From Nannobrachium achirus (Eukaryota > Chordata > Actinopteri > Myctophiformes > Myctophidae): a stretch of 64,000 nt of DNA. The notes beneath the pieces were generated by a model. It had not been told where the DNA came from. It searched no databases and saw nothing but the letters and a program-made list of their open reading frames with translations. The stretch covers positions 8,592,322 through 8,656,321 of the forward strand of contig OY997655.1 of the NCBI GenBank assembly GCA_963921795.1, written 5' to 3'. Position numbers and translations under genes: made by a program. Numbering within the stretch: position 1 is the first letter of the stretch; the number at the start of each line of letters is the position of its first letter. Positions 343-63,539 of the stretch are shown here, one piece after another.

Positions 343-577
343 TCGTCGTTGTCGGGTGGAAACCTTGTTTGTCCATAACCATTTTAAAAATGATTTAAGC
401 TAGTGAAAACAGCCGATCTACAAGCACACAACGTGTGCTTGTAGATCTGCTGTTTTCCCTACTTTTGTGAGACGGCCTTGTATGATGAAGCAGGGCTTTG
501 CTTTTCGAAAAAATTAGGGTACCTACCCTATGGGATTTGAAACTTGGAGATACAAGGTTTCTGCCCGACAGTGACGA
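343..577. mobile_element. HP-B palindromic MITE, copy 1
   Basis: The ends are inverted copies: TCGTCGTTGTCGGGTGGAAA on the left and a matching TTTCTGCCCGACAGTGACGA on the right. The middle is a long hairpin at about 402-457 (arms with AGATCTACAAGCAC). Further copies lie at 38973-39232, 45065-45312 and 46253-46480. This copy and the 46-kb copy also share both flanks (about 232-720 and 46097-46640), so the pair was duplicated as a larger segment. It has no coding capacity, and the superfamily is not recognised. Confidence 0.75.
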
Positions 578-1161
578 TTTACTTGGTTGGCCGCCCAGCC
601 CCCAAAATGGAACGAAGGCAGATATTTTATTTTTATTTATTTTTTCCTAATGGCCGGCCTGGACCGGCCGGGAATGAAACGGCCTTTCGGGAGTTGTCCC
701 GCTTTTCCTAGTCTCGCGAGGCCAGAGTGTTGCCTCCACGATTTGGGCAAATGCTCCCGGCATACAGTCTGGCAAACGGAAATAGAAACGATGAGTGCGA
801 GATAAAGTGGATGTGACGCAACCGCTCCCTTGGTGCAGTAGCAACAACATGTCCTACTGGAAGCGTTATGTGTCCTTTCAATATTTCTGGGGACGTTATT
901 TCATCTTTCTCTGGTGTTATTGGTGTTACTTCCATGATGTTTTCAAACGTTTTCTTAAACTATACACCCATAACAAGAATAGGCAGCTCGAATGACTTTG
1001 TCTGAGCTATTGTGTTTCTGTTATGTTTCCTATGGGACTACAGTTCAGTGCAGCAGTGGCTACTTCCCATACTCGCCGTTCGGGAGCTGCCGTTCCAGAC
1101 TCTATATAGCATTCGGAGATTGTGGAATAGTTGTCTGGCTACGCGAGACTACGGCCCTAGT

Positions 1162-1523
1162 AACTTTAGCTATTGAAAAATAGCAGATCTACAAGCTCAC
1201 AGTGCGGCACCGAGTGCCGCACTGCAAGCTTGTAGATCTGCTATTTTTGAAAAGTCGTGAAAATGTGTGAAAATCTTTGAATATATGTATTTTTTAAGTG
1301 AACATTTGTAACTCAAATTTTGCTTCTGGGGGGTCCCTGGAACTAGATGTTTTGAGATGGGGGGTCCGTGGCCAAATGCATATCATCTTGGGGGTCCTTG
1401 ACATGAAAAAGTTTGAGCATCACTGACATGGAAACATAGGTTTCTTGCACACATTTTCAAAAATGTTCTAAAATAGCAGATCTACAAGCTTGCAGCGCGG
1501 CACTCTGTGCCACGCTGTGAATT
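1162..1523. mobile_element. HP-A hairpin-ended MITE, 3' damaged copy
   Basis: This is a copy of the HP-A family: a near-perfect hairpin at each end (1176-1248 intact, about 1471-1523 with the outer arm lost). Between them is a body containing GGGGGTCCCTGGAAC and GGGGGTCCTTGACATG blocks. The body matches that at 3291-3686, 25867-26300, 27957-28526, 40002-40525 and 46880-47442. It is non-coding and lies just upstream of the attractin exon. Confidence 0.7.
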
Positions 1524-1680
1524 TGGTGTGATGCCCCTGGACAGCGCTACCGACTGTGCCAACGTGCCCCCTGTTTCTTGTTGGCTACGCGAGACTACGC
1601 TTTTCCCAATGGCCATCACGTCCCTGGTCTTGTCTCCATGTCCTGACCCGCTCCTCCTGCTCTGTCTCCCCTCTCTGCAG

Positions 1681-1800
1681 CAGCTGATGCGGGAGCGCCA
1701 GCAGATGGCCAGCCGTCCCTTCGCCTCCGTGGCCGTGGCGCTGGACGCCCAGGGCAGCAAGCAGCCGGAGCTGTCGCCGCCGGCGCCCCCTGGAGTTGAC
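1681..1800 (+). CDS. atrn/atrnl1: Attractin-family gene, third-last exon (cytoplasmic tail)
   Basis: This 120-bp exon encodes 40 residues starting QLMRERQQMASRPFASVAVA. A pyrimidine-rich acceptor ending CTCTCTGCAG precedes it and a consensus donor GTGAGT follows. The MASRPFASV block is the conserved juxtamembrane/cytoplasmic motif of attractin (ATRN) and attractin-like 1 (ATRNL1), as I recall those tails. They are single-pass membrane proteins that, in mammals, act with the MGRN1 ubiquitin ligase pathway on melanocortin signalling. The exon ends in phase 0, matching the phase-0 start at 30750. The acceptor is a TGCAGCAG tandem (NAGNAG), so one glutamine may be optional. Upstream exons lie outside the window. 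The family is fairly certain; which paralogue is not. Confidence 0.82.
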
Positions 1801-2100
1801 GTGAGTACCATCGTGTAATGTTTTTACACACTTAACCTGGGTTCAGAGGGGCCACAAACACCGGAGAGCAGCCAAACATCAAATGTTTTTTTTTTTTTTT
1901 TTTTTTTTTTCTACTGGATCTCTACTCCGCTTGTCCAGGTTTTTGAGCGGTGGTAGACCGCTCCATAGCATGGCCGTGTGTGTATCCGTGTATGTATCCG
2001 TGTATGTGTGTATGTAATGAATACCACTGGTGGCCAGAGAGGGTGCTGCTGAGTCTAGTCTGAGCATCAACTGCAAAAGGCCTACAAACACACACTCTCT

Positions 2101-2120
2101 CTCTCTCACACACATGCACG

Positions 2121-2173
<53 letters not shown>

Positions 2174-2184
2174 CCCTGGATGAG

Positions 2185-2221: not shown

Positions 2222-2224
<3 letters not shown>

Positions 2225-3290: not shown

Positions 3291-3686
3291 TTAACCCATT
3301 TAGGCCTAGGATTATTGACTGCTTCGGTGCCACGCTGTGAGCTTGTATATCTGCTATTTTTGAAAAATCATGAGTTTCTGAATATATCTATTTAAAAGCG
3401 AACATTTGTAACTCAAATATTTGCTTCAGGGTGGTCCCTGGAACAACATATTTTGAGATGGGAGTCCGCGGCCAAATTTTGGGGGTTCTTGACATGAAAA
3501 AGTTTGAGAACAACATGATTTAGAGGAAGGATTTAGAAGTCGGGTCAAAGATCGGGTCAAAGACTTGCACACATTTCCACGATTTAAAAAAAATAGCAGA
3601 TCTACAAGCTCGCAGCGCGGCACTCGGTGCCGCGCTGTGAGCTTGTATATCTGCTATTTTTCAATAGTTAAAGCATAAAATAATGG
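3291..3686. mobile_element. HP-A hairpin-ended MITE, 5' hairpin truncated
   Basis: It starts with TTAACCCATTTAGGCC. The first hairpin keeps only its right arm (3324-3361), and the second (3588-3661) is complete. It ends CAATAGTTAAAGCATAAAATA, the family 3' end. The body matches the other HP-A copies. Confidence 0.7.
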
Positions 3687-4066: not shown

Positions 4067-4140
4067 GAAAATAGCCGTTCTACAGGCTCACAGAGGCTCG
4101 CGGTGCGCAATGCTGTGAGCTTGTAGATCAGCTATTTTCG
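4067..4140. repeat. Solitary GATCTACAAGC-type hairpin
   Basis: The inverted repeat runs from GAAAATAGCCGTTCTACAGG to CTTGTAGATCAGCTATTTTC around a GC-rich apex. It is a degenerate member of the hairpin shared by the HP-A and HP-B families. A half copy lies just upstream at 3747-3768. Confidence 0.6.
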
Positions 4141-4612: not shown

Positions 4613-4656
4613 GTATGGTTGTATGTATTGGCAGCCTTCAACCTCACACTCTAGCT

Positions 4657-5100
4657 CAGTGGTTCTCAACCTTTCTCGGGCCGCGACCCCCAAAATAATC
4701 ATATTTTAACTGGGGACCCCCCACCCTGACGAGCACTGAGGCAGAGTTGAGGCATTACGTATTGTATAACACGGTTCTATTGTGAAAATAGCAGATCTAC
4801 ATTCTCACAACGCCTCGCAAAACGTGAGGCGTTGTGAGCATGTAGATCGGCTATTTTCACAAATTCTGCCTCTAATAGGCCTATTTGGACAATGTTACAT
4901 GTTACAAAGGTATTAAAAGTCATTTAATTGTCACTTTATAAATGTGCAGATACCCTCTATACACTTATACTGCAAGTTCTTTTCTTTTTTTAATGTTGAG
5001 TGAGAAAACAGTGTTTCAAATTAATCAAATCATCTGGGGACCCCCCAAAATAATTTGGGGACCCCCCTGGGGGTCCCGACCCACAGGTTGAGAACCACTG
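4657..5100. mobile_element. hAT-type non-autonomous element with perfect 8-bp TSD
   Basis: The terminal inverted repeats CAGTGGTTCTCAACC and GGTTGAGAACCACTG are typical of hAT transposons. They are flanked by an exact 8-bp duplication CTCTAGCT (4649-4656 and 5101-5108). The element is 444 bp and has no transposase. Inside it, 4780-4862 is a GATCTACA-type hairpin like those in the HP-A and HP-B families. Confidence 0.92.
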
Positions 5101-5442
5101 CTCTAGCTGCCTGAGCTAATTCATGAAGCAGCTGAGTGTGGCTGGGTGTGGCTGTGTCAGTGTGACCTGATTGCTGTTTGACCACCTGTCAGTCTGCTAG
5201 TGGGGCTGCTTCAGTTCTGTCACCTGTATGCCCAAGGCACCACAGATATTAGCTATACATGGCAGCAATGTAATTCTGGTCGTTTCTTGCACTTTATTTG
5301 GTGAGTTATGCACTTTTGTTTGCACATACAGTATAGAACTTTGCATGTACTATGACTTTCCTCAGCCCTGGTCTGTTTACTGGATAGTAGTCTGAGTTAC
5401 TCTAGTCCATACCTGCTATCAACCTGATGTACACTCATGTTA

Positions 5443-8400
5443 ATCCAGTATCTGACTTAAAGTCCTGTTCGCAATTTGGTGTTAGGGGAGTTTCTCACCT
5501 GAACTGAGTCAGTGGGTCCCTAGACATGAATAATCACAGAGGTGCTCGTCCGCCATAGTGCCAGGAATGGCGCAATGGCCAAATCAAATATGGCTGCCAT
5601 CGGCTATGATGAAAATCCAACTTTTCTGTATATGCACATGTAATACCTCCATTTGGACTAATTGGGGTATGGGGAATTCATTTCTGATATTGTTTTGACC
5701 ATTTTGGGTGATTTGGACCTCAAAAGGTCATGGTCAAGGTCATTTTGCTATTCCGAAGACTGTGGGCCATAACTTGGCCATTGTTAGGAGTAAAAACAGG
5801 TGCAGTAGGTCTAAATCAACTAATGCTGACATGTATAATTCATTTCTGACATTGTTTTGACCATTAAGGATCATCTTGTCTTTGAAATATCAATGTCAAT
5901 GCCATTTTCCAAAAACGATTTTGTTCATTACTTGCACTTTTATAGTATTTTTTGTAAGTTTGTTACTATTTTATAGTAAGTTTGTTTTGTTTATAACAAA
6001 AGACATACTAGTGACAAATACAACAAGTAAACATCCACATTTAACTTTAAAGGGGGGTTTTAAATGGGTGTTTAAATGAGCAAATAAGACTATTTACGAA
6101 TAAAAGTGACAAATAAAATCACACAACAAAAGCACACACAAAATTAAATAACAATTTCCCTCAAAGTGCACCATATTGTGATTGTGTGCATCCAAGTTAG
6201 TATGATGTGTTTTTACAGGATGGATTTGCCATTGTTCCATGGCAAAATATGATGCACCGATCAGCAAGGCAGCCATATCCTCGAGAGTCGAAGTGTTCCT
6301 TGCATCCATCCATGTTCCATTGGTTCTAGTCTTTCCTCAGGTTCCTTGGCTGTTGCAAGCAGGTGGCAAGACATGCACTAGAAAGGTGCCTTGTTGGTAT
6401 CAGCAGTTGTACTTCTCTGCAACCAATGCTGTGTCTTGTTCTGTCAAGGTCTTTGCCTCTCCAAAGTGTGTTAGATATTGTATTTGGTCAGAAGCCATAG
6501 CTGCATGCTTAGTCCCCACCTGGCCCATGCAGTCATCTCCAGTTTCCAAGGCATATGTCCCCTGATCACTGTCTTGGCTAGTGGTGCTCCAAGATGAGAG
6601 ACTGCTTGATGCTGTAGAAGCATGTGCCGCTGCACACCTAGTGCCATACTGCTACCAGATCTACTTAATCCCCAGTGCTTGGAAGTATCACTACGACAAC
6701 TCTCTGGCGTCCACTCATAATCCTGGCGACCCATTATTCCCTCCATTAGGTTACGGTTATGGGTAGGTTTAGTTATAATAGGGCCAGTTGACTCCACAAT
6801 CCACATGTACCAGCAGCTTGGTGACAGCCTCCTCAATCTAGTTCAATCTTTGGGATCTCTTCACCTCCAGCCCCTTTTGCAGGGAGCCACTCATCATCAT
6901 CAGAGATAACAGACGCACCCATCCCTCATCAACTTTACAAATTCTGGGTGTCTGAGGAGAACACACAGCTCTCCAGCTGTGTGTTCGGAATATGGTGTCC
7001 ATTCAAGCTTGTGGCGATGTAGGTAGAACGGCTGCCTTGGAATCTGAAGGTTCCAGGGTCGATTTCTGGCTCCTCCTGCTTATTTGTCGAAGTGTCCTTA
7101 AGCAAGACACTGAACCCCTAACTGCTCCCGGTGAGCACCTTGCATGGTTTCACGGTGTGAATGTATGTGTGAATGTGTGTGTTAATGGGCAAATGTGAAA
7201 TATATTGTACAGTGCTTTGGAGAAGAGCGCTATATACTGTAAATGCAGTCCATTTACCATTATCAGCTCTGTTGTCTCTGTTGATGATGTCGCTAGTGGA
7301 GAAGAGATCCCAGACATCTTGAATAGGATTGAGGAGGCTGACACCTGGTGCATGTTCAGCCTCCATTATAACTAAGCCTATCCTAACCTTCACTAACCTA
7401 ATGGTCAGAATAATGAGATGTCGGAACTATGAGCGGACCCCAGAGAGTTGTTGTCTCCTTCACATTACTGCTATATTACACCCCATATTTCCAAGCACTG
7501 GGGATGAAGGAGATCTGGCAGCAGTATGGCTCTGGTGAGACTCACTTCTACTGCATCAAGCAGTCTCATCTTGGAGCACCACTAGCCAAGACAGTGATCA
7601 AGGCACATATGCCTTGGAGACAGGAAATGACTGCATGGGCCAGGTGAGGATTAAACATGTAGTTATGGCTTCTGACAACAAACTTTGGAGAGGCAAAGAC
7701 CTTGACAGAACAAGACACAGTATTGGTTGCAGAGAAGTACAACTGCTGAGAACAACAAGGCACCTTTCTAGCGCGTTTCTTGCCACTTGCTTGCAACAGC
7801 CAAGGAACCTGAGGAAAGACTAGAACCAATGGAAAATGGAACAGGACATGACATAAAGGCTTGTCCTGTTGTCCAGGACAAGTGCCCATACTATGGAGTG
7901 GAGGGAGCAAGGGGGGTCATTAGCCGTCCTTTTGTTATTATTTCAATGTATGAAATTTTTATCCGGACAAGTGACTTTTGTCCCCGGACAAGTGAATGGG
8001 AAATATACTTGTCCAAAGGACAACTGCCTCAAAAAGTCAATGTCAAGCTCTGATGGATGGAAGGAGCACTTTGACTTTTGTACACTCCTGCCATGTCTGA
8101 AACAAGACACTCGACACTGATGGAGTTCTGTGCATCATATTTTGCCATGGAACAATGACAAATCCATCCTGTAAAAACACCTCATACTAACTTGCATGCA
8201 CACAATCACAATATGGTGCACTTTGAGGTAAATTGTTATTTAATGTTGTGTGTGATTTTGTTGTGTAATTTTATTATGTCACTTTTATTCGTAAATAGTC
8301 TTATCTGCTCATTTAAACACCCATTTAAAACCCCCCTTTAAAGTTAAATGTGGATGTTTACTTGTTGTATTTCTCACTAGTATGTATTTTGTTATAAACA

Positions 8401-8945
8401 AAACAAACTTACTATAAAATAGTAACAAACTTACAAAAAATACTATAAAAGTGCAAGTAATGAACAAAATCGTTTTTGGAAAATGGCATTGACATTGATA
8501 TTTCAAAGACAAGATGATCCTTAATGGTCAAAACAATGTCAGAAATGAATTATACATGTCAGCATTAGTTGATTTAGACCTACTGCACCTGTTTTTACTC
8601 CTAACAATGGCCAAGTTATGGCCCACAGTCTTCGGAATAGCAAAATGACCTTGACCATGACCTTTTGAGGTCCAAATCACCCAAAATGGTCAAAACAATA
8701 TCAGAAATGAATTCCCCATACCCCAATTAGTCCAAATGGAGGTATTACATGTGCATATACAGAAAAGTTGGATTTTCATCATAGCCGATGGCAGCCATAT
8801 TTGATTTGGCCATTGCGCCATTCCTGGCACTATGGCGGACGAGCACCTCTGTGATTATTCATGTCTAGGGACCCACTGACTCAGTTCAGGTGAGAAACTC
8901 CCCTAACACCAAATTGCGAACAGGACTTTAAGTCAGATACTGTAT
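5443..8945. mobile_element. 3.5-kb fold-back: long inverted repeat around a SINE-bearing loop
   Basis: The left arm (about 5443-6920) is repeated in reverse complement by the right arm (about 7265-8945). The outer 700 bases are nearly perfect (AGTATCTGACTTAAAGTCCT against its complement). The inner part is more diverged, with an extra block at about 7860-8100 in the right arm. The loop carries a SINE. Both arms read an unrecognised coding-like stretch facing out of the loop (SHLGAPLAKTVI, then HMPW; plus strand at 7561-7647, minus strand at about 6505-6590). Outer ends are not flanked by an obvious target duplication. It may be a fold-back transposon or an inverted duplication. Confidence 0.8.
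7003..7262 (+). mobile_element. SINE-like element in the fold-back loop
   Basis: The head, with GTAGGTAGAACGGCTG and AGGGTCGATTTCTGGC, resembles tRNA-derived A and B boxes. It is followed by the fish-repeat phrases CAAGACACTGAACCCCTAAC, GTGTGAATGTGTGTGT and GCGCTATATACTGTAAATGC. It is a transposed pseudo-tRNA, not a functional tRNA gene. Confidence 0.65.
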
Positions 8946-9081
8946 TATGTACTGATTTTTGTGATTTTTGGATATGCCTGTATTTTTACAAATTTCATAT
9001 TATCTCATGTCTGTCCTTGTTGCAGGCTTTTTGCCTGATGATTGTCCTATGGCATGAAACTCTGAGTTGCAAAACCATGTG

Positions 9082-14390: not shown

Positions 14391-15840
14391 GGCCCTCATT
14401 TATCAATGGAGTGTAAAAACTGGTCTATTTTTTTCACCAAATTTTGCGTAGGGCAACGTGTGCACGGCATTTATCAATGCTTCCTAAACAGACACACCTG
14501 CCCTACATTTGATCCCAGCGTTGATAAATGCGCAGGCTGAAATTTAAATAACACGCCCTTAATTATTCTAGAAACGCCCCGATTTTACGACCAGAACAAT
14601 CCGAATACGACCTAACAACCAAAGAAAAGCTATGTCCGCGTCCCACACAGACCACGCACACATGCACGCACGCACGCACACACCTACACACGAAACTAGG
14701 CTACTTGGAACAGCAGCATTTTGGTTTACACAGCAGTCTTTGACAGTGGAAACGTGGGATTAACCAACGGTACAATTTTTGACAAGGACGCTATAGCACT
14801 GCAGCCGACATGAATGACACAAGTCACTGCCATGAATACTTTTGGATATTAATTTAAACCATAACCTACCCGTGCCGTGCGTGCGCAGACAGAGCGCGTT
14901 CATTTGGTTACAAGCAATCATAATTCCCCATGGCCATGATCTCGCGGCTCGCCACGTCGGGTTTCCAGCATAGTGTACAATAGCTAGGCTACTGTATAAA
15001 TTGAGAGACCCCACGGTTACGTTTTGGATATTAATTTAACCCAATTTCGGCGACGAGCGCTATGCACGTTTGAGTGCTTAAACTAGCAATCATGTAGGTG
15101 GGTCTACCGTTGCTGTGCGCTGGTCTTCTCCCCGGTGGGCCGTGGACCATAGAGTTATAGCCGTGGACCCCCAAATAAATCATCCGCAGCGTGCGTGCTG
15201 AGCGTGCGGGCTGGGCACAGCCAAGCCAGGTTGGACCTTCGGTTTTATCCATATTTAAAAGGACTCAAGACTCACAGCGGCGTCGCGCTGGGCCCGAAAA
15301 TGCTCTCGCATGCGTTCGTATCTGTGCTTGTTCTGAGCCAGATCTCCAATCTTAAGATTTATTCTGTTAAAGCAATTAACAGTAGATTTCTTCCATATAT
15401 AATTTAAATATATATGGAAGAAATCTACTGTTAATTGCTTTAACAGAATAAATCTTAAGATTGGAGATCTGGCTCTTAATGCTTGTCATTGTAACTTGAA
15501 AATAAAATCGGCGTGAATGTCCATGATGTAGCCGGCTATAGGCTATGCTTTTATAAAATGTTATATTTTCACAGGATTATTTATTATTGTGTTGGATATA
15601 CATTTTCGAGTGGATACATGTGTCCATTGCCTGTCAGATAATTAAACAATGGTGCTCCGCACGTCTACAATGGAACAAAGTGGTGTAGGATGATTCCTAC
15701 ACCACCTCAGGACTTGACGTGAGATTTGATCCTACCCTAGACCAAAGTCAAAGTCAAGTTGAAATGATAAATGCCGAGACTTGCCTAAATTTCGGTGTAC
15801 ACCCAAATTTTGATCTGCACCACGTTGATAAATGAGGGCC
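14391..15840. mobile_element. PIF/Harbinger-like non-autonomous element, 3-bp TSD
   Basis: The termini are GGCCCTCATTTATCAA and TTGATAAATGAGGGCC, flanked by AGT on both sides (14388-14390 and 15841-15843). GGCC-start ends and a 3-bp duplication fit the PIF/Harbinger superfamily. It is 1,450 bp with no transposase frame recognised. A perfect hairpin is embedded at 15335-15475. Confidence 0.8.
15335..15475. repeat. Perfect 141-bp hairpin
   Basis: The arms begin GAGCCAGATCTCCAATCTTA and end in its exact complement. They are about 65 bp each with a short AT-rich centre (AATTTAA). I see no mismatch. Perfect symmetry implies either recent formation or an assembly or cloning fold-back. Confidence 0.9.
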
Positions 15841-18743: not shown

Positions 18744-20597
18744 CTAGTTGCAGCCCCCTGGGAAGATAAGACAGGCGTCTTCGGGGTTGATGCCCAGGAT
18801 GTGGAAGCCCGCGGCCATGACGGCCGTGGTGGCCTCAGACAGCAGCATCCGGGACATGTCCACCTTCACCACCTGGCCCGTCCGCCGGTCCTTCTCCAAT
18901 ACGCAGTGGTGACTGCGTGAGTAGAAGTCGTTGAAGGCGATCGCCAGCTCGTACATGTACGTGCACAGTGCGTTCGGCTGCAGGTCGTCCGCCATGCGTT
19001 GGAGGACCTCGGGGAAGCGCACCACGCACCTCCCCAGCTTCCACTCCTTGTAGTGTTCCAGCCGCACCTTCTCGGTCGCCGCCGCCCTCCGCAGTGCCTC
19101 CCCGTTCAGGCCAGCCAAGTGCCTGATGGCCCTTATACGCGCGAACGCGTACAGCAGGTACAGCAGGTCCGGCATCCTGTCGAAGGAGAACACATAGTCG
19201 TAGAGGCGGTTGTGCAACAGGTCGGCGTACTTGATGTAGCCGAACGCCAAGGCGCGTTGCGCCCTCTGCTGCTTGTCTGCGCTCAGCGCCTTGTCCCGCC
19301 CGCGCTCCTTCAGCTTGTCCATGGACCTCCTGAGCCCCTCGTCCAGCAGGTCCATCAGCCGCACCGTCTCCCCGGAGGGGGTCTTGAGCTTCTTCCTGTC
19401 CTCGCCCAGCACCACCCCGAAGCCCACGTGTTCGATCCTGGTCGCCCGCGGGTCGTACCAGCCGGCCATCCGGGCGGCGGCGAACTCCAGCTGGAAGTGG
19501 CCCGCCTGGCTGCTGTCCGTCACGTAGATGATGACGTCGGCCTTCTCCTCGCAGATCCGGTGCTTGAGCGCCGCCAGTTCCGAGGTGTCGTACGTATAGC
19601 CACCGTCTGAATTCACCACAGGCAGAGGGCGGGACCTGCCAGGGGCGAACACGACCTTGCGCCCGTCCTCGACCTTCACCAGCCCTTTGTCTTCTAACTC
19701 CTTGACCACGTCGGTCATCAGGTCCTGGTAGAAAGACTCTCCCCTCTCCACGAGCCGGACGTCCAGGCAGTCGTACACCCTCTGGAACTCCTTCCTGGAC
19801 ACGTCGCAGATGAGCTTCCAGGCCTTGGTCAGGTCGTCCTTCTTGCCCTGCAGGTCGATGACGCACTGGTACGCTCGCCTCTTAAAGGCCTCGTCCTGAT
19901 CGAAGCGCTCCTTGGACTCCTTGTAGAAGGCCCGCAGGTCCCCGATGTCCGGGCTGGTGCTCAGGTAGTCAGGGAAGCTGTCCTGCAGGTGGGCGATGAG
20001 CATCCCCAACTGGGTGCCCCAGTCGCCCACGTGGTTCAGCCGGAGCACCTCGTGGCCCAGGAACTCGAACAGGCGACACAGGCTGTCGCCGATGACGGTG
20101 GAGCGCAGGTGGCCCACATGCATCTCCTTGCCGATGTTGGGCGAGGAGAAGTCCACCACCACCTTCTTCTTCGTCTCTGGCGGTGGCGGGCGGACCCCGT
20201 GGACCAGCAGGCCGGACAGCAGGCCGGACACGAAGGTCCTCCTCAGGTGGACGTTGATGTACCCGGGGCCCGCCACCTCCGTCCGCTGGATGAGCTCGTT
20301 GTCGGGCACGGCCCGCTGGATCCTCTCTGCGACCTGTCTGGAACTGGCGCGGCTGCCGCCAGGAGGATTCTTCTCCAGCATCTTGGCGAGGGTCATGGCG
20401 CCGTTGCATTGGTATTCCTCGATCTGGTCCTGCCGCCTGGGCACCACAGACACCAGGCCGGGGTGTCCGTCCACGTCCAGCTCCGGATACGCTGCCCGGA
20501 TGGCCTGGCCCAAGATCTCCCTCAGCCGCTGGTTGATGTTCACCATGGAGGATGATACGCTCCTCGACTCTTCCTCCTGAAGGCTCCTCTTCAGCAT
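18744..20597 (-). CDS. rars1-like: Intronless arginyl-tRNA synthetase-like retrogene, copy 1
   Basis: A single 617-codon open frame is colinear with cytosolic ArgRS, which charges tRNA-Arg. The Met at 20597 is the first ATG after an in-frame TAA. RARS1-like coding ([15 protein letters not shown]) extends a few codons upstream of it, so the N-terminal leucine-zipper part is truncated. An alternative start MVNINQR lies 17 codons in. Visible features: N-terminal add-on domain; [16 protein letters not shown] with the class I HIGH motif as HVGH (residues 160-163); [22 protein letters not shown]; the KMSK-like loop as KLKTPSG; and the C-terminal anticodon-binding domain. About five residues of the conserved DDRGNTAAY region are missing before LLYAF. 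It has no introns, whereas vertebrate RARS1 has many. It lies antisense in the attractin intron. Aminoacylation is doubtful. Confidence 0.9.
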
Positions 20598-20899
20598 TTT
20601 CAGTCTGTATTTCAGACGAGCGTTTTCTTCTTGCAGCTCATCCAGACGGATGGGGGACAGGGACCATTAAATACTACTAAGAAAGGACTGTTATTCACAG
20701 GTTGGAACTAGGACCCGCCAGACTTAAACCGGGATATTTAACGATATGGTCAAGGTAGTCAAAGGTTTGTGTGGTACAAAGATATCTGGGCTGTAAGGCC
20801 AAATATCTTGTGGACTGAATATGAGTTGGCTGAGGTTGGAGTGTCCTTGAAGATCTGTGGATAGTCTTGCTGGAGATCCTCAGGTGCGATGGTTGAATC

Positions 20900-21379: not shown

Positions 21380-21660
21380 GCATTCCCAGATGATGCCCTG
21401 TTAGGATACACGCTTATGCCCAAATATGGAGATCCCAAGGCATCAAACCCAGGCCCTAAGTCGCCATGGCCCTGCTTGTCTTTAACATACGTTTTATGCC
21501 CATTTATGGAGATTCCTGTCCCAATGTTATCAATATTAAGGATATATCTGGGAATGCCCATATTTGTTAATGCCCATGCATGTTTTGACATAACATTGTT
21601 GACTATCATGCAGGGGTCCCCATATATGAATAACTGGTCCCATATACATCACTGGCCAGA
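21380..21660. repeat. CCATATATGG-type repeat block 2
   Basis: This copies 18195-18480 (GGGCATTCCCAGATGATGCC, GACATAACATTGTTGACTAT and CATCACTGGCCAGATGGCCA all recur in order). It marks the start of the second RARS1-like duplication unit. Confidence 0.8.
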
Positions 21661-21854
21661 TGGCCAAGAATTGGCGCGACCTTGTGTCGCCCTGAGCTGT
21701 CTTACTAGTTTTATTTTACAGACAGCACGGTCGGCCACTGGGCTCCAATTGGCTGTGCTGTGCTGTTTTTCTTTTTCTTTGTTCAAAAAGATTCGTTTTT
21801 GGGCTTTTTCCCCAGAATTGCAAGTGTTCTGATAATAGAATTCCCAAATGTGAC

Positions 21855-25866: not shown

Positions 25867-26300
25867 TTAAACATTATTGTATGCTTTAACTATTGAACAA
25901 ATAGCAGATATAGAAACTCATAGAGCTTGTAGATATGCAATTTTTTGAAAAAACATGATATTTTTGAAAAATCTTTTAATATATATTTTAAAAAATGTAC
26001 ATTTGTAACTCAAATATTTGCTTCTGGGGGTCCCTGGAACAAAATATTTTGTGATTGGGAGCCTGGGGCCAAATACATGTAATTTTGGGGATCCTTGACA
26101 TGAAAAAGTTTGAGAACCACTGATTTAGAAGAAGGATTTAGATGACATTTATAGAATCGAGTCAAAAATATTCAAAGACTTGCACAAATTTTCAAGATTT
26201 TTCAAAAATGGCAGATCTACAAGCTCACAGTGCGGCACTCTGTGCCATGCTGTGAGCTTTTACATCTGCCATTTTTCACAGCTAAAGCAAAAAATAATGC
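25867..26300. mobile_element. HP-A hairpin-ended MITE
   Basis: A degenerate first hairpin (25903-25951) and a nearly complete second one (26205-26277) flank the standard body with GGGGGTCCCTGGAAC and GGATCCTTGACATG. Confidence 0.65.
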
Positions 26301-27740: not shown

Positions 27741-27956
27741 AGGTAATATTTTAACAAATCAGCAATCAAATGGGAGTTAAATAAGAAGACCTCATTTAAA
27801 GGTGGAAAAAACAGAGTGAAGAAGTGATTGTGTACAGGATGGTGAGTGGATGGTTTGTGTGAGCAGAGCCAATGATGTGTGCAGTGCATCGCTTCAATTA
27901 TACACACTTCCTGGACAAATTAGAGGCGTGATGTGTTGCCCTGAAAAACAAACCGT

Positions 27957-40001: not shown

Positions 40002-40525
40002 TTAACCCATTCAGAACGGGTGCACATTATTGTGTATCATTATTTTATGCTTTAACTAATTGAAAAATGGCAGATATACAAGCTCACAGCGCGGCACCGA
40101 GTGCCGCGCTGCGAGCTTGTAGATCTGCTATTTTTGAAAAATCGTGAAAATTAGAATTTTGACCCGATTCTATAAGTGTCTTTTGAATCCTTCTAAGGTT
40201 TTTTGAAAAACCTACTGTATGTTTCTATGTCAGCAATCTGGCTATAGCCATCGTCAAAGAAAAGGTCCTTTTCACTCAACTGGAGCTCAGTTAGTTCTTG
40301 AGAGACTACTATGTCAATGGGTTCTCAAACATTTTCATGTGAAGGACCCCCAAAATGATTCTTATTTGGCCACGCACGGACCCCCATCTCAAAATATTTA
40401 GTTCCAGGGACCACCCCAGAAGCAACATTTGAGTTACAAACGTTCGCTTTGAAAATGCATATATTCAAAGATTTGCACACATCTTTCACGACTTTTTCAA
40501 AAATAGCTAAAGCATTCAATAATTC
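40002..40525. mobile_element. HP-A hairpin-ended MITE
   Basis: It starts TTAACCCATTCAGAACGGGT. The first hairpin (40063-40135) is nearly perfect; the second is deleted down to AAAAATAGCTAAAGCATTC. The body is as in the 28-kb copy, including CTCAGTTAGTTCTTGAGAGA. Confidence 0.72.
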
Positions 40526-46252: not shown

Positions 46253-46480
46253 TCGTCATTGTCGGGGTGGAAACTTTGTATTCCAAAACCATTTTAAAAA
46301 TGATTTAAACTAGTGAAAACAGCAGATCACGCCTCGCACCGCGAGGCGTTGAGTGCTTGTAGATCTGCTGTTTTCACTACTTTTGTGCGACAGCCTTGTA
46401 TGATGAAGCAGGGCTTTGCTTTACGAAAAAATTACAAATTTGAAACTTGGAGATACGGGGTTTCTGCCCGACAGTGACGA
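46253..46480. mobile_element. HP-B MITE, copy sharing flanks with 343-577
   Basis: The termini are as in copy 1. The hairpin (46312-46378) has lost part of one arm. The flanks GTGACAAGCCAGTGGGCCAA and GGACGTGCTGGGCCCCTG also occur at the window start. Confidence 0.75.
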
Positions 46481-46879: not shown

Positions 46880-47442
46880 TAGGCCTAGGATTATTGACTG
46901 CTTTAACTATTGAAAAATAGCAGATATACAAGCTCACAGCGCGGCACTCGGTGCCGCGCTGTGAGCTTGTAGATCTGCTATTTTTGAAAAAGTTGTGAAA
47001 ATGTGTGCAAATCTTTGAATATATGTATTTTTAAAGTGAACGTTTGTGACTCAAATTTTGCTTCTGGGGGGGTCCCTGGAACTAGATATTTTGAATTGGG
47101 GGTCCGTGGCCAAATAAATATCATTTTGGGAGTCCTTCACATGAAAATGTTTGAGTACCACTGACATAATAGTCTCTCAAGAACAGACTAACTGAGCTCC
47201 AGTTAAGTGAAAAGGACCTTTTCTTTGACGATGGCTGGCCAGATTGCTGTCATAGAAACATAGGTTTTCTCCAAAAATCTTAGAAGGATTCAAAAGACAC
47301 TTATAGAATCGGGTCAAAATTCTAATTTTCACGATTTTTCAAAAATAGCAGATCTACAAGCTCGCAGCATATCTGCTATTTTTCAATAGTTAAAGCATAA
47401 AATAATGAAACACAAAATGTGTACCCGTTCTAAACGGGTTAA
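46880..47442. mobile_element. HP-A hairpin-ended MITE, complete body
   Basis: The first hairpin (46906-46988) is nearly perfect and the second (47334-47388) has lost its apex. Subterminal TTTAACTATTGAAAAATAGC and GCTATTTTTCAATAGTTAAA are inverted. The right end ACCCGTTCTAAACGGGTTAA abuts the next TTAA element. Confidence 0.78.
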
Positions 47443-51483: not shown

Positions 51484-51604
51484 CTGTCAGGCTTCATGGA
51501 TTGGACAGGGTTTGCTTCACGTTCGTGCCACTGTTTCAATATGAGTGGCAGCGGGCTCACTAACTCTGTGTTCTGTTTGCGGTCGGTAACTCTTTCTTAA
51601 AGCG
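51405..51604 (+). promoter_or_regulatory. Conserved 5' flank of KLHDC3-like copy 1
   Basis: Two inverted CCAAT boxes (CTCATTGGCC near 51440 and ATGGATTGGACA near 51495) and the GTTTCAATATGAGTGGCAGC block are shared with 56248-56438 and 60873-61060. There is no TATA. A poly-C run of about 34 (51449-51482) has expanded between the CCAAT boxes only in this copy. Confidence 0.5.
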
Positions 51605-52672
51605 ATGCTGTGCTGGACACGGCATCTGGAAGGAGAGGAAAAAGAGGACGGTTGTCCAGAGGGAGAACGATACTGCGCTGCTATAGCGGCGAGGCACAAG
51701 GTGTACTTTTTTGGACACTACGAGAAGTACGAGAAGAACACGAAGGATGTGAAGAGCTGGCAGATTGATGTTCACATCTTCAACACAGTGTCTTTAGGCT
51801 GGGTAAAGTTGCCTCCAAAGACCCCTGGAGGAGGAGTAAGTCGCTATGAGGTTCCCTCCATGCGCTGGGGACACACAGCTGTGCTCATAGAAGATACGGT
51901 CTTCATTTGGGGAGAGTGCTGGAGAGGGCGGAGAGGGAGGTACTACGATGAGCTTTTTGCATTTGACGTTGATGCCCACAGATGGTTCAGACCCAGGGCT
52001 TATGGGGAAGTTCCAGAGGGGAGGAGGAACCACTCTGCCTGTGTGTTGGAGAAGGTTATGTTTATCTTTGGAGGATCGACCAAGCGGACTAGATATACGT
52101 ATGATATCTACAAATTGGACACCAGCACAATGGTCTGGTCTTTAATTAACAGCGGAGGAACTCCACCATCTGCTTCAAAAGGTCCCTCTGCCACCATCAT
52201 CGGGACAAAGATGTTTGTATTGGGAGGAATCAAGTGCAACAGAATCACAGTGTTTGACACAGAGACAAACTGCTGGCTGAGCACACCTGCACGGCGTCTT
52301 ACAGAAGAACTCATGTGTCGTTCAACCTTTACCTACAATGGAGAGCTGTACATATTTGGTGGACTTCAACAGAACCAGTCCTTTAGACCTCTGTGGAAAT
52401 ACAACCCAAAGACCTCCTTCTGGAAGAAGTTTGAGCCCAAGGGGAGAGGACCATGTACAATGGAAGGCATGTGCTGTTGCGTGGTGGGAGATCGTATCGT
52501 CTTCTTTAAAGGACCCAAACCCAGAGACACACCCGCCTATGACGTGTACATCTTAGACATGAGTACTCCCAGTCTTAAGACACTGTGCGAGCTGGCAGTT
52601 ATTCAGTACGGACTGGAGCAGTCTGGACTCCCACACAACGTCAGGTGGGAACTGGCAGCCATGACAAAATAG
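51605..52672 (+). CDS. klhdc3-like: Intronless KLHDC3-like kelch protein, copy 1
   Basis: This 355-residue frame starts MLCWTRHLEGEEKED. The first Met aligns with the start of KLHDC3 (MLRWTVHLEGG), a substrate receptor of CUL2 ubiquitin ligases that reads C-terminal degrons. Kelch blades are visible (IDVHIFNTVSLGWVKLPP; LFAFDVDAHRWFRPR; IYKLDTSTMVWSLI; FDTETNCWL; LWKYNPKTSFWKK). However, the Gly-Gly doublets of three blades are lost (FFGHY, WGECW, FFKGP). The C-terminus SLKTLCELAVIQYGLEQSGL, then PHNVRWELAAM, keeps the BC-box (SLxxxC) and Cul2-box-like part. The parent gene is about 380 residues with introns; this copy has none. It is about 30 residues shorter, part of which is a deletion before VFDTETNCW. 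It may be an adaptor with altered substrate choice, or decaying. Confidence 0.86.
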   Translation: MLCWTRHLEGEEKEDGCPEGERYCAAIAARHKVYFFGHYEKYEKNTKDVKSWQIDVHIFNTVSLGWVKLPPKTPGGGVSRYEVPSMRWGHTAVLIEDTVFIWGECWRGRRGRYYDELFAFDVDAHRWFRPRAYGEVPEGRRNHSACVLEKVMFIFGGSTKRTRYTYDIYKLDTSTMVWSLINSGGTPPSASKGPSATIIGTKMFVLGGIKCNRITVFDTETNCWLSTPARRLTEELMCRSTFTYNGELYIFGGLQQNQSFRPLWKYNPKTSFWKKFEPKGRGPCTMEGMCCCVVGDRIVFFKGPKPRDTPAYDVYILDMSTPSLKTLCELAVIQYGLEQSGLPHNVRWELAAMTK

Positions 52673-55014: not shown

Positions 55015-55316
55015 ATTGAAAACTATGCAAAAATATGCTTTTTTGAAGTCAAAGACTTCTCTGCATGACTTCTTTATATACCATATCTGCTTTGAAAGGC
55101 CTCCATCTTCCCACTATCCCACTGTGGTTCACACTACTCAACTAGTACCATTGCGTGCTCTTCAGTGAATGATTAGAGCCAGGCACAAACTTGGGAAACA
55201 AATAAAAAAATAACAACCCTTCCTAGATTTTTGAAGCGGTGAAAACCGCTTCCTATGAGTGGCTTTGTGTGTATCACGCCCATATATGGTGATTTTAGTC
55301 CAGAATGAACAGGCTT

Positions 55317-55404
55317 TTTCAAAAACAGAATGTCCGTTTAATTACCATAATATGGTAATTAATTACCATAATATGGTAATTAAACGGACATTCTGTTTTT
55401 GAAA
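55317..55404. repeat. Perfect 88-bp palindrome without loop
   Basis: TTTTCAAAAACAGAATGTCC to its exact complement, with centre GGTAATTAATTACC. It interrupts a duplicated CCAGAATGAACAGG repeat. Confidence 0.9.
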
Positions 55405-56066
55405 ATGGTGACTGAGATCAGCATATATTATATGGTGATCTCAGTCCAGAATGAACAGGGTTTTTCAAAAACACAATGTATGTCACCTCATGTCCATATA
55501 TGGTCACTCCAGGCCAGAATGAACAGTTTTTTTTCTGTCCCGTACGTGCAGAATATCAGTCCAGAATGAATAGGCTTTTTCAAAAAGCAAAATGTGTGTC
55601 CCATGTCCATATATGGTCATTTCAGAAACATCTAATAGGTCTCACCTATTGCAGCAATGACAAATAGCCGCATAAGAGCAAAAGCAAAGGCACAATAAGA
55701 ATATACAGATGCTAACAGAATGGTAAAAAGGAGCATTAAGGCAGACAAGAGTAAATACATTGAAAATCAAGTCATTGAAAAATGTAGTAGGCCACAAAGA
55801 TAACAGAAACTGAAATAATTATGGGATGCAGTTGACAAACAACTAAGAGACCAGCAAGCAGGATTTTTTATATATTCTTTTAAAACCTATTATACCGGCT
55901 GTCATACCGGCTCTCCAGACAATTCTATACTAAGATTCACCGCTTCACTTCGAACCGAGGTTTGATTTTTTAACCAAGAAACCTATTTTTGCTAAGCATG
56001 GACATTTCTCATGCACCACAGAAGAACACAAGAATATTGTGACAATTAATTCCGTAGCCTTTAAAA

Positions 56067-56245: not shown

Positions 56246-56247
56246 AC

Positions 56248-56438
56248 AGTAACCAATCAAGCACCTGTTCGGCTTCTCTCATTGGCCAACCCCCAAACCG
56301 TCAGGCTTCATGGATTGGACAGGGTTTGCGTCACGTTCGTGCCACTGTTTCAATATGAGTGGCAGCGGGCACACAAGCTCTGTATTCTGTTTGCAGTCGG
56401 GCACTCTTTCTTAGCGTCGGGTTTTTTTGTTTACTGCG
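56248..56438 (+). promoter_or_regulatory. Conserved 5' flank of KLHDC3-like copy 2
   Basis: The inverted CCAAT boxes (CTCATTGGCC, ATGGATTGGACA) and GTTTCAATATGAGTGGCAGC are in the same order and spacing as the other copies. The C-run is short here (CAACCCCCAAACC). Confidence 0.5.
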
Positions 56439-56988
56439 ATGCTGCGCTGGACCGTGCATCTGGAAGGAGAGGAAAAAGAGGACTGTTGTCCAGAGGGAGA
56501 ACGATACTGCGCTGCTATAGCGGTGAGGCACAAGGTATACTTTTTTGGACGCTACGAGAAGAACACAAAGGATATGAAGAGCTGGCACATTGATGTTCAT
56601 ATCTTCAACACAGTGTCTTTAGGCTGGGAGAAGATGCCTCCAGTGCCCCCTGGAGAACATCACCATAAGATTCCCTCCAGGCGCTTGGGGGACACAGCTG
56701 TGCTCATAGAAGATACGGTCTTCATCTGGGGAGGGTACTGGATAGCAAGGAGAGGGAGGTACTACGATGAGCTTTTTGCATTTGACGTTGATGCCCACAG
56801 ATGGTTCAGACCCAGGGTTTCTGGGGAAGTTCCACAGGGGAGGAGGAACCACTCAGCCTGTGTGTTGGAGAAGATCATGTTTATCTATGGAGGATCGACC
56901 AAGCGGACTACATACACTGATGACATCTGGGTGGGTGACGTGACGTAACGTTTTCGCTGTCCTCGGTGTCAAACATGTATAAATAAAC

Positions 56989-58457: not shown

Positions 58458-58524
58458 CGAAAATAGCTGATCTACAAGCTCTCAACACGTTGTGCTGCGA
58501 GAGCTTGTAGATCAGCTATTTTTG
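58458..58524. repeat. GATCTACAAGC hairpin with compensatory changes
   Basis: The arms AAAATAGCTGATCTACAAGC and GCTTGTAGATCAGCTATTTT pair perfectly. The usual GCAGATC/GATCTGC is changed to GCTGATC/GATCAGC on both sides. Confidence 0.8.
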
Positions 58525-60194
58525 GAGTTGCGCAACCCAGCACTCTTTAGCTAGTGGAGATGTGGTGTAATGTCATGATTCCTAATTACATTTGTTCAAC
58601 ACAAAATGCTGTGTTCAAGTTCAGGAGACTTCGGAAAAAAGCAATTTACCTGAATGCTGAGTTCTGTTTCCACTAATTGGTGTTAATAAAATGTTGCCTT
58701 GGCTCCAAGTGTGGCTATGCGCCTTATTGTCTCTTTAGGATCCTTCTGCCGTGGGCCGGCACAAGACTTAGGTGTGCGTAGCATTCCTGTGCACATCCTC
58801 ATCATCCATCTACTACTACAATTCTTTCTTATCCCATGTTAAAACCCTACAATAATATCCTGTACAGAAATATTAAGGCCATGTTATCCTGGGTAATTGT
58901 TTAATCAATCAGTAAAGTTCAGTACTCACTAATAGGTAGGTTAAAACACAGTTTGCTTTGACACATGAAGATATGATCATACGGTGTGACACTAAATCAT
59001 TTGGTGTGACATTCCAAATAGTGAAAAATCATACCTTTATTAATGATTAAACCAAAAAAATGTTTATGGATTACATAGAGAATATTATCAGGAAGAGTCA
59101 CAAATATTTGTGTAATTTTAGAGAAAGTTTTGACAGAATACATTTAAAATATGTTGTAAGATCATGAACATGGGCCTCACACAGAGTGTCGATTATGAAA
59201 AAAATATACAGACATAATTAATTTTCAAAAAACTATAGTGGATCACTGGTTAGTTATGATAAAGGACTTTGATAAAGTGAGTAACTTAAGAAAGATGTAC
59301 TCCATTTTCATTTTATGAACAATTATTTTCATGTCACACCATATGACGATTTTAGGCACAAGTACAACAAACTGCTGAATAAAGTCTGATTCCAATAAAA
59401 TATCTAAAAACAAAATGTATTTCCATAAGGTTGAGAGTGAGTAGAACAAAAGTAAATAACTTTTATGCCTGCATTTTAAAGTTTTTTTAAAAACAATTTT
59501 TTTGGGGCGTCACGTCACTGACCCATCTACAAGTTGGACACCAGCACAATGGTCTGGTCTTCAATTAACAGCAGAGGAACTCCACCGCCTGCTTCAGAAC
59601 GTTACTTTGCCACCATCATCGGAATGAAGATGTTTGTATTTGGGGGCTGGGAGGAAAGCGACTACGACAGCATCACAGTGTTTGACACAGAGACAAACTG
59701 CTGGCTGAACACACCTGCACGGCTTCTTCCAGGAGAACTTGTGTGTTGGTCAGCCTTTACCTACAATGGAGAGCTGTACATATTTGGTGACCGGGAATTA
59801 AGTCATCTGTGGTGGAAATACAACCCACAGACCTTCTCCTGGAAGAAGGTTGAGCCCAAGGGGAAAGTACCATGTTCAACGCATGGCATGTGCTGTTGCA
59901 TGGTGGGAGATCGTATCGTCTTTAAAGGACACAAACCCGGAGACACACCCGTTTATGAGCTGTACATCTTAGACATGAGTCCCAGTCTTAAGACGCTGTG
60001 CGAGCTGGCAGTTATTCAGTACGGACTGGAGCAGTCTGGACTCCCACACAACGTCAGGTGGGAACTGGCAGCCATGACAAACTAGCATTTGTGGCATGTT
60101 GTGCAAAACGGGCCACTCCCACAAAACAGGTAATGTTCCAATGAAATGTCACAAATCCGACACGTGGTCATGTGACCACAGAGATAAAGGTGTA

Positions 60195-61060: not shown

Positions 61061-62137
61061 ATGCTGCGCTGGACACTGCAACTGGAAGGAGAGGAAAAGG
61101 AGCTAGGTTGTCCAAAGGGAAACCGATACCGCGCTGCTATAGCGGCGAGGCACAAGGTGTACTCTTTTGAAAGCTACAAGAACGTAAAGGATATGAAGAG
61201 CCGGACGATTGTCGTTCACATCTTCAACACAGTGTCTTTATGCTGGGTGAAGATGCCTCCAGAGACCCCTGAGGTTCCCTCCGGGCGCTGGGGACACACA
61301 GCTGTGCTCATAGAAGATACAGTCTTCATTTGGGGAGGGTACTGGAGAGCAAGGAGAGGGAGGTACTACGATGAGCTTTTTGCATTTGATGTTGATGCCC
61401 ACAGATGGTCTAGACCCAGGGTTTCTGGGGAAGTTCCACAGGGGAGGAGGAACCACTCTGCCTGTGTGTTGGAGAATGTTATGTTTATCTATGGAGGATG
61501 GAACCAATGGAGTAGATATCCTAATGACATCTTCAAGTTGGACACCAGTACAATGGTGTGGTCTTTAGTTAACAGCAGAGGAAGTCCACCATCTACTTTC
61601 GACCGTCACTCTGCCACCATCATCGGGACGCAGATGTTTGTATTTGGGGGCTATTTGGGGGGTACGGGGCCATACAGCAACAACGAAATGGTCTACAACC
61701 ACATCGGCGTGTTTGACACAGAGACCAACTGCTGGCTGAACACACCTGAACAGCTTTTTCCAGAGGAACTTCATTCAGCCTTTACCTACAATGGAGAACT
61801 GTACATATTCCGTGGCCGCAATTTGAAGCAGACCTTCAGTGACCTGTGGAGTTTCAGTCCAGAGTCCTTCTGGAAGAAACATGAGACCAAGGGTAGAGGA
61901 CCGTTTACAATGTATGGCATGTGCTGTTGCATGGTGGGAGATCGTATTGTCTTCTTTGGAGGATACAAACCAGGAGATGGCACGCCCGCTGATAAGCTGT
62001 ACATCTTGGACATGAGTACCAGTCTTAAGACACTGTGCAAGCTAGCAGTTATTCAGTACCGTCTGGAGAAGTCTGGACTCCCACACAACGTCAGGTGGGA
62101 ACTGGCAGCCATGAAAAATTCATATAAATTAAACTAG
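61061..62137 (+). CDS. klhdc3-like: Intronless KLHDC3-like kelch protein, copy 3
   Basis: This 358-residue frame is counted from the ATG that aligns with KLHDC3 Met1 (MLRWTLQLEGEEKELG). The frame is open for 28 codons further upstream, but that part lies in the shared non-coding flank. It is the most parent-like copy: it keeps FGGYLGGTGPYSNNEMVYNH before the VFDTETNCW blade, which copies 1 and 2 have lost, and WGGYW, YGGW and FFGGYKPGDG doublets. Blade 1 is changed to SFESY and a later one to IFRGR. The C-terminus SLKTLCKLAVIQYRLEKSGL, then PHNVRWELAAMKN, preserves the BC-box and Cul2-box-like region. It is the likeliest of the three to be functional as a CUL2 adaptor. It shares its 5' flank with the other copies. 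Confidence 0.88.
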   Translation: MLRWTLQLEGEEKELGCPKGNRYRAAIAARHKVYSFESYKNVKDMKSRTIVVHIFNTVSLCWVKMPPETPEVPSGRWGHTAVLIEDTVFIWGGYWRARRGRYYDELFAFDVDAHRWSRPRVSGEVPQGRRNHSACVLENVMFIYGGWNQWSRYPNDIFKLDTSTMVWSLVNSRGSPPSTFDRHSATIIGTQMFVFGGYLGGTGPYSNNEMVYNHIGVFDTETNCWLNTPEQLFPEELHSAFTYNGELYIFRGRNLKQTFSDLWSFSPESFWKKHETKGRGPFTMYGMCCCMVGDRIVFFGGYKPGDGTPADKLYILDMSTSLKTLCKLAVIQYRLEKSGLPHNVRWELAAMKNSYKLN

Positions 62138-62329
62138 CAAAATAGAGCACACTATTCCCGATGAAACTGGTCGATTTGACAAGCTTTGGGTGGTCTTTTT
62201 TGCATCTTCCAATTAAAGTAAAAATGGGAGAATTGAATCCACTAATACATTCATATAAATTAAACTATTCAATATGTATCTTAGCAAAATGCCAGTCGAT
62301 TATTTTTTATTTTTTTTATTTTTTTTTAT

Positions 62330-62500
62330 ATTTCTTACACTATTTCTTTAAACTAGTACCCGCTTCCTTAAAGTCGCATTGCAACGGAAGTGCTCCACTT
62401 GCTTCACTTCCGTAAGGTGACGCATTTCCTAGTGAAACGGGCCAGGAAGGTGGGACATAGCGCTGGGAGGTATGTGATTTGACGGTCAGAAAAGTAGGCG
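62330..62500. repeat. Segmental-duplication 3' flank of copy 3
   Basis: Partner of 54115-54310: AACTAGTACCCGCTTCC, GAAGTGCTCCACTTGC and GAAACGGGCCAGGAAGGTGG in the same order, only about 220 bases after the stop codon. Confidence 0.75.
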
Positions 62501-62925
62501 GGCCATAACTCATTGAAGACACGGGATAGGCGGGCTTTCCCCGCTCGTCTGTCCCAGAAATGTATTCCATACACACGGGCGACAGAGAAGACTGGAATGA
62601 AAACACAACACGCACAAACTCGTGCAAAAAGAGGCAATTATCTGTGAAATTAATGATAAATAAATCAGATGTTGCCATTTTGTCATTTGAATGCAATTTT
62701 ACAGAGCGCATTTCGGGGTTAGGCTCTATTCAAGTAAACCAACTATCCCGTTGTTGCACCAAAAGTTTTGACCAAATCCCGGTTGGGTCTGGTTATATGG
62801 AAACATGAGCAGAACAGGTCTCGGAACTTCACAGGTTCTTGAAAGTTCTTGGTTATAGTTCTGGGTTAGCCCTATAGTGGAGAAGGGGCTATGGTTATCT
62901 CTGCCGTGCCAAAGATTAGAGCTTG

Positions 62926-62927
<2 letters not shown>

Positions 62928-62972
<45 letters not shown>

Positions 62973-63006
62973 GTGCGTGCGCGTGCGTGCGTGCGTGCGT
63001 GCGTGT
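62928..63006. repeat. (TG)n/(CGTG)n microsatellite
   Basis: A TG tract passes into CGTG repeats, followed by a short C-run near 63047. The next 500 bases hold half of a GATCTACAAGC hairpin (63228-63253) and dispersed repeat pieces. Confidence 0.95.
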
Positions 63007-63539
63007 GTCCTCCCCATCCACCTCTCTACATCTTCATCTACAGTACCCCCCCCCCTCTCTTTTAGTTAGTTTACCCTTCTTTATTGCTAAACTAAGGGTG
63101 ATGGTACAGAATATAGTGATTAGCTCAAAGAACAACCTCACAACATGTAGTAACAGTAACACTCTTTGTATGTCTCCTCTCTGTATAGGCTGTTGAAGGA
63201 GAGATAATTATGGTACATTACTCATTGTTGAGCTTGTAGATCTGTTATTTTCAAATGGCCGAAATGTATAGGGTTGAAGTGCAGGCTGCCACGAAACTGG
63301 TAAAAAATTTAAAAATGTAACCTCTCTGCTTGTTTTTATTTTTTATTATTACTATATTTTCTGCATAGTACTGTGTCAGGCCGGGTACACATTTTAGTGT
63401 ATGGGAGGGGCTTACAGTACATGTACAGTATGTTGCATCATATTTGTTTTTGTAGGCTAAATTCAGATTTAGGCCTAACTATAGGTCAGGCCTAAATGGG
63501 TTAAAAAGAAACAAGCCTGCCGGGTTTCTTGCGGTGTTC

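Follow-up and report, generated by a model that had tools for sequence, protein, structure and literature searches.

A hairpin module internal to several families of miniature inverted-repeat transposable elements in Nannobrachium achirus

The stretch analyzed here, hereafter called the window, comprises 64,000 nucleotides of the Nannobrachium achirus genome (assembly GCA_963921795.1, contig OY997655.1, positions 8,592,322 to 8,656,321). It holds many copies of a hairpin with the core GATCTACAAGC, several of which lie inside short miniature inverted-repeat transposable elements (MITEs). The core matches the window 33 times with at most one mismatch (24 matches are exact), compared with 0.92 matches expected, and none of 100 shuffles gave a count as high. 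Folding was performed on all 14 intervals listed in the initial annotation, each extended by 10 flanking bases per side, and all 14 form hairpins with energies of -22 to -76 kcal/mol; the recurrent hairpin described in that annotation is confirmed. Folding and palindrome scans indicate a unit of approximately 75–90 bp with arms of approximately 35–43 bp and a loop of 3 nt. The T-run of the hairpin is the far arm of the palindrome, AAAAATAGC...GCTATTTTT. In all, 39 full-length hairpins were detected, 36 of which are distinct.

The hairpin and its host elements

The hairpins and host elements of the window are as follows, with the method given in parentheses.

401–461: B-type hairpin with a shortened apex (folding)
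1176–1248: A-type hairpin (folding)
3589–3661: A-type hairpin (folding)
4067–4140: hairpin with an unpaired stretch close to the apex (folding and palindrome scan)
4657–5100, plus strand: family C hAT-type MITE, CAGTGGTTCTCAACC...GGTTGAGAACCACTG
4780–4862: hairpin of the family C element (folding)
26204–26276: A-type hairpin with several stem mismatches (folding)
27955–28526: family A TTAA-type element with a hairpin near each end; ends approximate
28019–28091: family A hairpin, first of the pair in the 27955–28526 element (folding)
28425–28486: second family A hairpin of the 27955–28526 element, imperfect and shortened; its ends are approximate
29702–29774: divergent hairpin copy (folding and palindrome scan)
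33966–34012: short A-type hairpin with a deleted apex (folding)
38974–39231, plus strand: family B MITE of 258 bp with the terminal inverted repeat (TIR) CGTCGTTG...CAACGACA
39075–39163: central palindrome of the family B MITE, loop GGT
40063–40135: A-type hairpin, loop CGA (folding and palindrome scan)
46312–46378: lopsided B-type hairpin with one arm partly deleted (folding)
46913–46985: A-type hairpin with the inverted loop TCG and the GATATAC arm on the left (folding and palindrome scan)
58458–58524: hairpin with the pair change GCTGATC/GATCAGC (folding)
63232–63247, minus strand: half hairpin, one arm

Two inverted arms of 117 nt (1164–1280 and 3557–3673) each hold an A-type hairpin.

The hairpin is abundant throughout the genome, which was scanned over 1,658,514,493 bases (1.66 Gb) in 564 contigs, with C1–C24 measuring 49–90 Mb each. 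The core occurs 231,940 times in the forward and 231,644 times in the reverse direction, compared with 54 and 43 times for the reversed pattern that served as a control. Pattern searches found 74,013 near-intact hairpins with TAGC arms, 13,315 B-type hairpins and 2,576 E-type hairpins, and the control gave zero in each case. Because these patterns fix part of the stem, change rates taken from their rows refer to the free positions only, and the rows may favour less mutated hairpins. One 22-base pattern had no match in viral contigs, and a search for the core sequence in papers gave a single, unrelated match. Beyond the window, 20 stretches of 10 kb and eight 3-kb loci were sampled.

Clustering of the hairpins by their flanks separated several sequence contexts. 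The family borders were set from whole-genome alignments in which 40 copies were scored per search, among 7,987 candidates for family A, 3,647 for B, 8,170 for C, 10,410 for D and 8,616 for E. The family B element measures approximately 258 bp and has the hairpin at its centre. A TTAT direct repeat borders the copy in the window (38970–38973 and 39232–39235), and among 34 readable copies an exact 4-bp repeat is present in 20 and absent in 8. The family C element is flanked by a perfect 8-bp target-site duplication (TSD), CTCTAGCT, at 4649–4656 and 5101–5108, and the repeat that surrounds it was found in three copies without the element (C7, C9 and C17). Family D (L027, 898–1340) starts with CAGGGGTCTTCAAC and, in one copy, has the TSD GTCAAGAG on both sides. 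Family E (L022, about 5664–6200) has the ends TAGGGCTGT/ACAGCCCTA and perfect 8-bp TSDs at L061, L065, L067 and L068. The hAT label of C, D and E is taken from their ends and TSD length, with no transposase behind it. Family A is clearest in the 27955–28526 element of the window and at L009 (8708–9292); at L009, TTAA stands at both ends and a hairpin lies close to each. The three settings named in the initial annotation, namely both ends of a TTAA-type element (HP-A), the centre of a second element (HP-B) and the interior of a hAT element with a perfect 8-bp TSD, are thus recovered as families A, B and C, with the hairpins of A near rather than at the ends.

Two further observations concern the hosts. 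A putative sixth group, family F (L001–L004 and L020), also carries the hairpin. The family E element at L022 contains a hairpin-free TTAA-type insert (6001–6131) with ends of the family A kind.

All five defined hosts have TIRs and a TSD length that is constant within the family, as judged for D from one copy. They are short (about 258–590 bp), present in high copy number and putatively non-coding. In B, C, D and E, the TSDs flank the host element and the hairpin occupies its interior, and therefore the hairpin is not the TIR of these elements. It is a region internal to families with different TIRs, and TTAA duplications or piggyBac-type ends are not common to them, A alone being TTAA-type. 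The hairpin is therefore a module carried in the interior of no fewer than five MITE families, whose ends and target sites are of three or more kinds, and its copy number results from the transposition of these hosts.

Variation in the stem and loop

The arms of the hairpin differ by matched changes between families and mostly by one-armed changes within families; the initial annotation had noticed matched changes between copies. Among the 36 distinct hairpins, the two arms match each other more often than independent arms would, mainly at positions 1, 19, 22, 25, 27, 31, 32 and 34, which separate the families; most other positions are near expectation. In an alignment of 27 of the 39 full-length hairpins, both-sided changes occur at 16 of 35 pairs, and the covariation score is 0.195, which none of 500 shuffles reaches; shuffling gives 0.107, and sliding the partner gives no more than 0.052. 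Less extreme is the number of additional pair types, which 15 of 500 shuffles reach. Because the rows are related by descent, these shuffle figures are not probabilities, and the alignment leans to well-paired hairpins because copies with a broken outer arm were excluded, together with near-duplicates.

Of 100 oriented rows of family B, 77 were full length and the 23 of other lengths were dropped. The 77 rows contain 29 left and 23 right changes at matched sites, of which 2 pairs are compensated (0.7 expected) against 48 one-armed changes. Family E gave 19 left and 34 right changes with 2 compensated pairs (0.95 expected) in 63 of 100 rows, 37 having been dropped because they were of other lengths or not typed. 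The small number of compensated pairs in both families indicates that the two arms of a decaying copy are mostly altered singly. A G.U pair is preserved in the plus-strand RNA by 20 one-armed changes in B and 15 in E, and in the minus-strand RNA by 16 and 22, respectively.

The loop is the most variable part of the hairpin and deviates from the consensus in 29.9% of cells (B, D and E pooled). The 77 rows of family B have GGT in 51 and ACC in 18, with six other loops in 8 rows; three of the ACC rows fall within a 3-kb span and could be duplicates of a single copy. The 63 rows of family E have ATC (50), GAT (7), ATT (3), AGT, ATA and ATG (1 each), and 21 copies of E found by alignment have GAT (9), ATT (6), AAT (3), ATC (1) and two loops of other length. 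The 21 copies of family D have AGC (11), GCT (7), AGT (2) and AAT (1). In B, D and the rows of E, the second commonest loop is the exact inverse of the commonest, which would otherwise take three base changes and which supports templating. Inversion is rare in family A (CGA 22, TCG 1 and CAA 1), as counted in only 24 rows that could be typed as A with GATATAC on one arm. On a tree of 61 family B copies constructed from the flanks only, the loop state needs 14 changes among 56 scored copies, and well-supported branches force at least 5. The number of flips in B is uncertain, but it is more than one.

Site 10 of the stem is an A/C mismatch in 16 of 21 copies of B and 16 of 19 of E, and it stands in the reversed orientation in 13 of 21 copies of D. 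A matched pair is found at this site in 5, 3 and 6 of these copies, respectively. In the 77 rows of B, the left A has changed to C, the matching base, 10 times, to T once and never to G, and the 12 left-C states on the B tree require 12 changes. Correction from the other arm is thus seen at site 10 in B, D and E, although it is partial. The same mismatch in most copies of three families may be a conserved mark of polarity or may have been inherited from a common ancestor. Both loop inversion and stem correction have been described as footprints of template switching in the accessible text of an earlier report (PMC8794818), and the loop flips and mismatch resolution observed here point to template switching in folded DNA. 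Together with the mostly one-armed private changes, these footprints mean that matched arms alone do not show selection on an RNA.

In families B and D, variation in the stem is several-fold lower than in the flanks, and the difference is larger for shared than for private variants. At non-CpG sites, with the loop and site 10 excluded, 9 of 1386 stem cells and 91 of 3142 flank cells are off consensus in 21 copies of B; in D, the non-CpG counts are 16 of 1301 and 337 of 7669. When B, D and E are pooled, the outer and apical stem deviate by 1.28% and 1.59%, compared with 2.92% for the outer 20 bp of each end and 3.74% for the other flank. A pattern that left the compared stem sites free retrieved 40 copies of B with 0.68% deviation in the stem and 11.7% in the flanks, which are partly misaligned or foreign; the 22 copies with well-aligned flanks, a subset that drops 18 of the 40, show 0.30% and 5.0%, and thus the same direction. 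Shared variants in the pooled families amount to 0.40% in the stem and 1.83% in the flanks, and private variants to 0.95% and 1.82%. We read this larger difference for shared variants as constraint in the lineages that amplified. Self-repair alone was rejected as the cause of the slow stems, because a mismatch that is resolved in only a sixth to a quarter of copies indicates a process too slow to explain them.

Origin and possible role of the hairpin

The explanation that we favour, and consider somewhat better than an even prospect, is that the hairpin is an old palindromic module inside several MITE families that is template-switched in folded DNA and whose stem is constrained during amplification. 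The module is carried by five or more families of non-autonomous DNA transposons and owes its abundance to the transposition of these hosts. Replication or repair would switch template within the folded hairpin, giving loop flips and mismatch resolution, and such templating in source copies would also account for the matched changes between families. The stem would be under constraint while the source copies amplify and probably acts in cis, through protein binding or its fold. The module would already have been present in each family before that family expanded. The cis-acting role in amplification is our leading guess. A bolder version, which we regard as rather doubtful, makes the hairpin a "parasite of parasites": a cis-acting module that boosts MITEs of unrelated transposases, keeps its shape by template switching and is the cause of their numbers. 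A stem that did aid amplification irrespective of transposase type would boost non-autonomous transposons in general.

Two suggestions of the initial annotation are each retained in part. One was that repair templated by the hairpin both copies and spreads it; loop inversion and mismatch resolution support templated change inside copies, but the spread itself is due to MITEs with their own ends and TSDs. The other was that the folded form is selected; here the milder claim of a constrained stem is supported in B and D, but the matched changes do not require selection as RNA, which is without support from the G.U counts.

Several observations weigh against the favoured explanation. Loop states shuffled on the B tree need a mean of 16 changes, and 70–77 of 500 shuffles are as low as the observed count. 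The copies on this tree were deliberately enriched for ACC and left-C states, the resolution of the tree is poor, with 36 of 58 inner branches left open, and six ACC copies fall in one clade, which indicates that part of the loop variation is inherited; subfamily inheritance can indeed explain part of the loop and mismatch pattern. In family E, the difference between stem and flanks at non-CpG sites is weaker (29 of 1321 versus 207 of 6612, p = 0.08), and private rates in the stem and flanks are equal. With CpG sites included, the gap shrinks to 2.8% versus 4.5% in D, 3.5% versus 3.7% in E and 0.9% versus 3.8% in B. Of thousands of candidates, 40 were scored, and the copies compared are the 20 with the best scores. 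In addition, genome searches with hairpin-removed queries gave no unambiguous pre-insertion copy of B or E. Among 17 hairpin-less copies of E, 13 retain at least 10 nt of hairpin sequence, and in the remaining 4 the neighbouring flank is missing as well. The 10 hairpin-less copies of B have ragged junctions; 4 retain at least 13 nt, and one (L110) is ambiguous.

This last copy bears on a simpler possibility, which we judge to be improbable but the most serious of the rivals: the hairpin may be passive cargo, a palindromic MITE of the Made1 or Angel kind that inserted into other MITEs and has no role in amplification. The borders TA-GTG...CAC-TA of the hairpin in B and E are such as a TA-target palindromic MITE would leave, and L110 reads as an empty site. 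However, L110 is equally explained by a deletion between TAGT repeats, and the TA borders are seen in B and E only, not in A, C, D and F. Beside the common segment, each family extends the palindrome by a few bases of its own, and these extensions are inverted, not direct, repeats. Passive cargo also does not predict a stem that changes more slowly than the flanks. Ordinary nesting, in which the hairpin would be the TIR of one family inserted in others, is the least credible reading. Nested elements are frequent in this genome, and the initial annotation had named this outcome as the one that would reduce the sharing to an ordinary matter, but the internal position of the hairpin with TSDs elsewhere contradicts it in four families (B, C, D and E), for which it is ruled out.

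Ectopic gene conversion or recombination between copies could keep the stems alike and move the hairpin between elements, as might be suggested by the nearly alike stems of B copies with strongly diverged flanks. At two diagnostic sites in 77 rows, though, bases of a foreign family occupy only 2 of 308 cells of the B stems, which argues against frequent exchange between families, and we consider this process unlikely to be the main cause. Selection of the hairpin as an RNA, in the form of a microRNA-, small interfering RNA- or RNA polymerase III-type transcript, is less likely still. It would suit the near-perfect stem and the T-run ends, and human miR-548 genes derive from Made1, according to the available portion of the report on them (PMC1784062). 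Nevertheless, the G.U-keeping changes given above are not in excess for the RNA of either strand, so that this asymmetry gave no signal in B or E, and one-armed changes within families far exceed compensated pairs (48 versus 2 in B). Further arguments against it are the A/C mismatch that persists in B, D and E and the absence of any Rfam match in the window. These arguments are compatible with RNA made from a few copies. The scan of the window for tRNAs found none.

Other features of the window and relation to known systems

The window has several other features. A GC-rich open reading frame (ORF) on the minus strand (18747–20666), with 640 codons without a stop, resembles arginyl-tRNA synthetase and matches a cytoplasmic arginine-tRNA ligase in the PDB (4r3z, presumably the human enzyme; E 5.6e-261). 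GC-rich parallel frames at about 21650–23700 resemble a copy of this ORF. Kelch-repeat ORFs on the plus strand at 51590–52669 (searched in Pfam), 56415–56945 and 59522–60082 look like a local family. A large inverted structure (5441–8947) has 678-nt arms that are 99% complementary and separated by 2151 nt, and it encloses additional inverted arms. Two near-perfect palindromes (15335–15475 and 55316–55405) are unrelated to the core, and a tandem array at 30846–32338 has a 35-bp unit in 42.7 copies with 96% matches.

We found no description of this module in the literature; most subscription papers and all repeat databases were outside the search, and it may therefore have been described. The statement of the initial annotation that no element like it is described was too strong, because the CMITEs of corals and the palindromic elements Angel and Made1 are precedents. 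In the accessible text on Acropora, the CMITE families with different TIRs have an internal region of approximately 75 bp in common, which is more conserved between families than the TIRs and for which a role in transposition was suggested (PMC2872659). The present module resembles them in being internal and common to families with different TIRs. That text mentions no hairpin, and it describes elements of about 100 bp in about 1,600 copies that all have TTAA TSDs (PMC2872659), whereas the present module is a hairpin, is far more numerous and occurs with TSDs of the TTAA, about 4-bp and 8-bp types.

Made1, the palindromic MITE behind hsa-mir-548, has 37-bp arms and a 6-bp centre in the available account (PMC1784062) and is thus a nearly perfect palindrome of similar size. 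Its arms are the TIRs of the element itself, whereas the present palindrome lies inside other elements. Angel is likewise an abundant fish MITE with long foldable inverted repeats and compensatory changes in some copies. In the accessible part of the study on zebrafish, the compensatory changes of Angel copies in long non-coding RNAs were interpreted as RNA selection (PMC3636048), whereas the loop inversion and mismatch resolution seen here lead to a process in DNA; the two systems are compared by description only. Matched changes in hairpins are often read as a sign of selected RNA structure, and the present case, which points to their production in transposon hairpins by a DNA-level process, bears on earlier readings such as that of Angel.

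A parallel for the process itself is template switching, which shares with the present case its described footprints, namely loop inversion and compensatory changes of several bases in the stem. As far as the accessible text goes, it was shown mainly in rRNA and microRNA genes (PMC8794818), whereas the hairpins described here are interspersed transposon copies. With tens of thousands of near-intact copies in alignable elements, this genome could serve to measure rates of template switching per hairpin.

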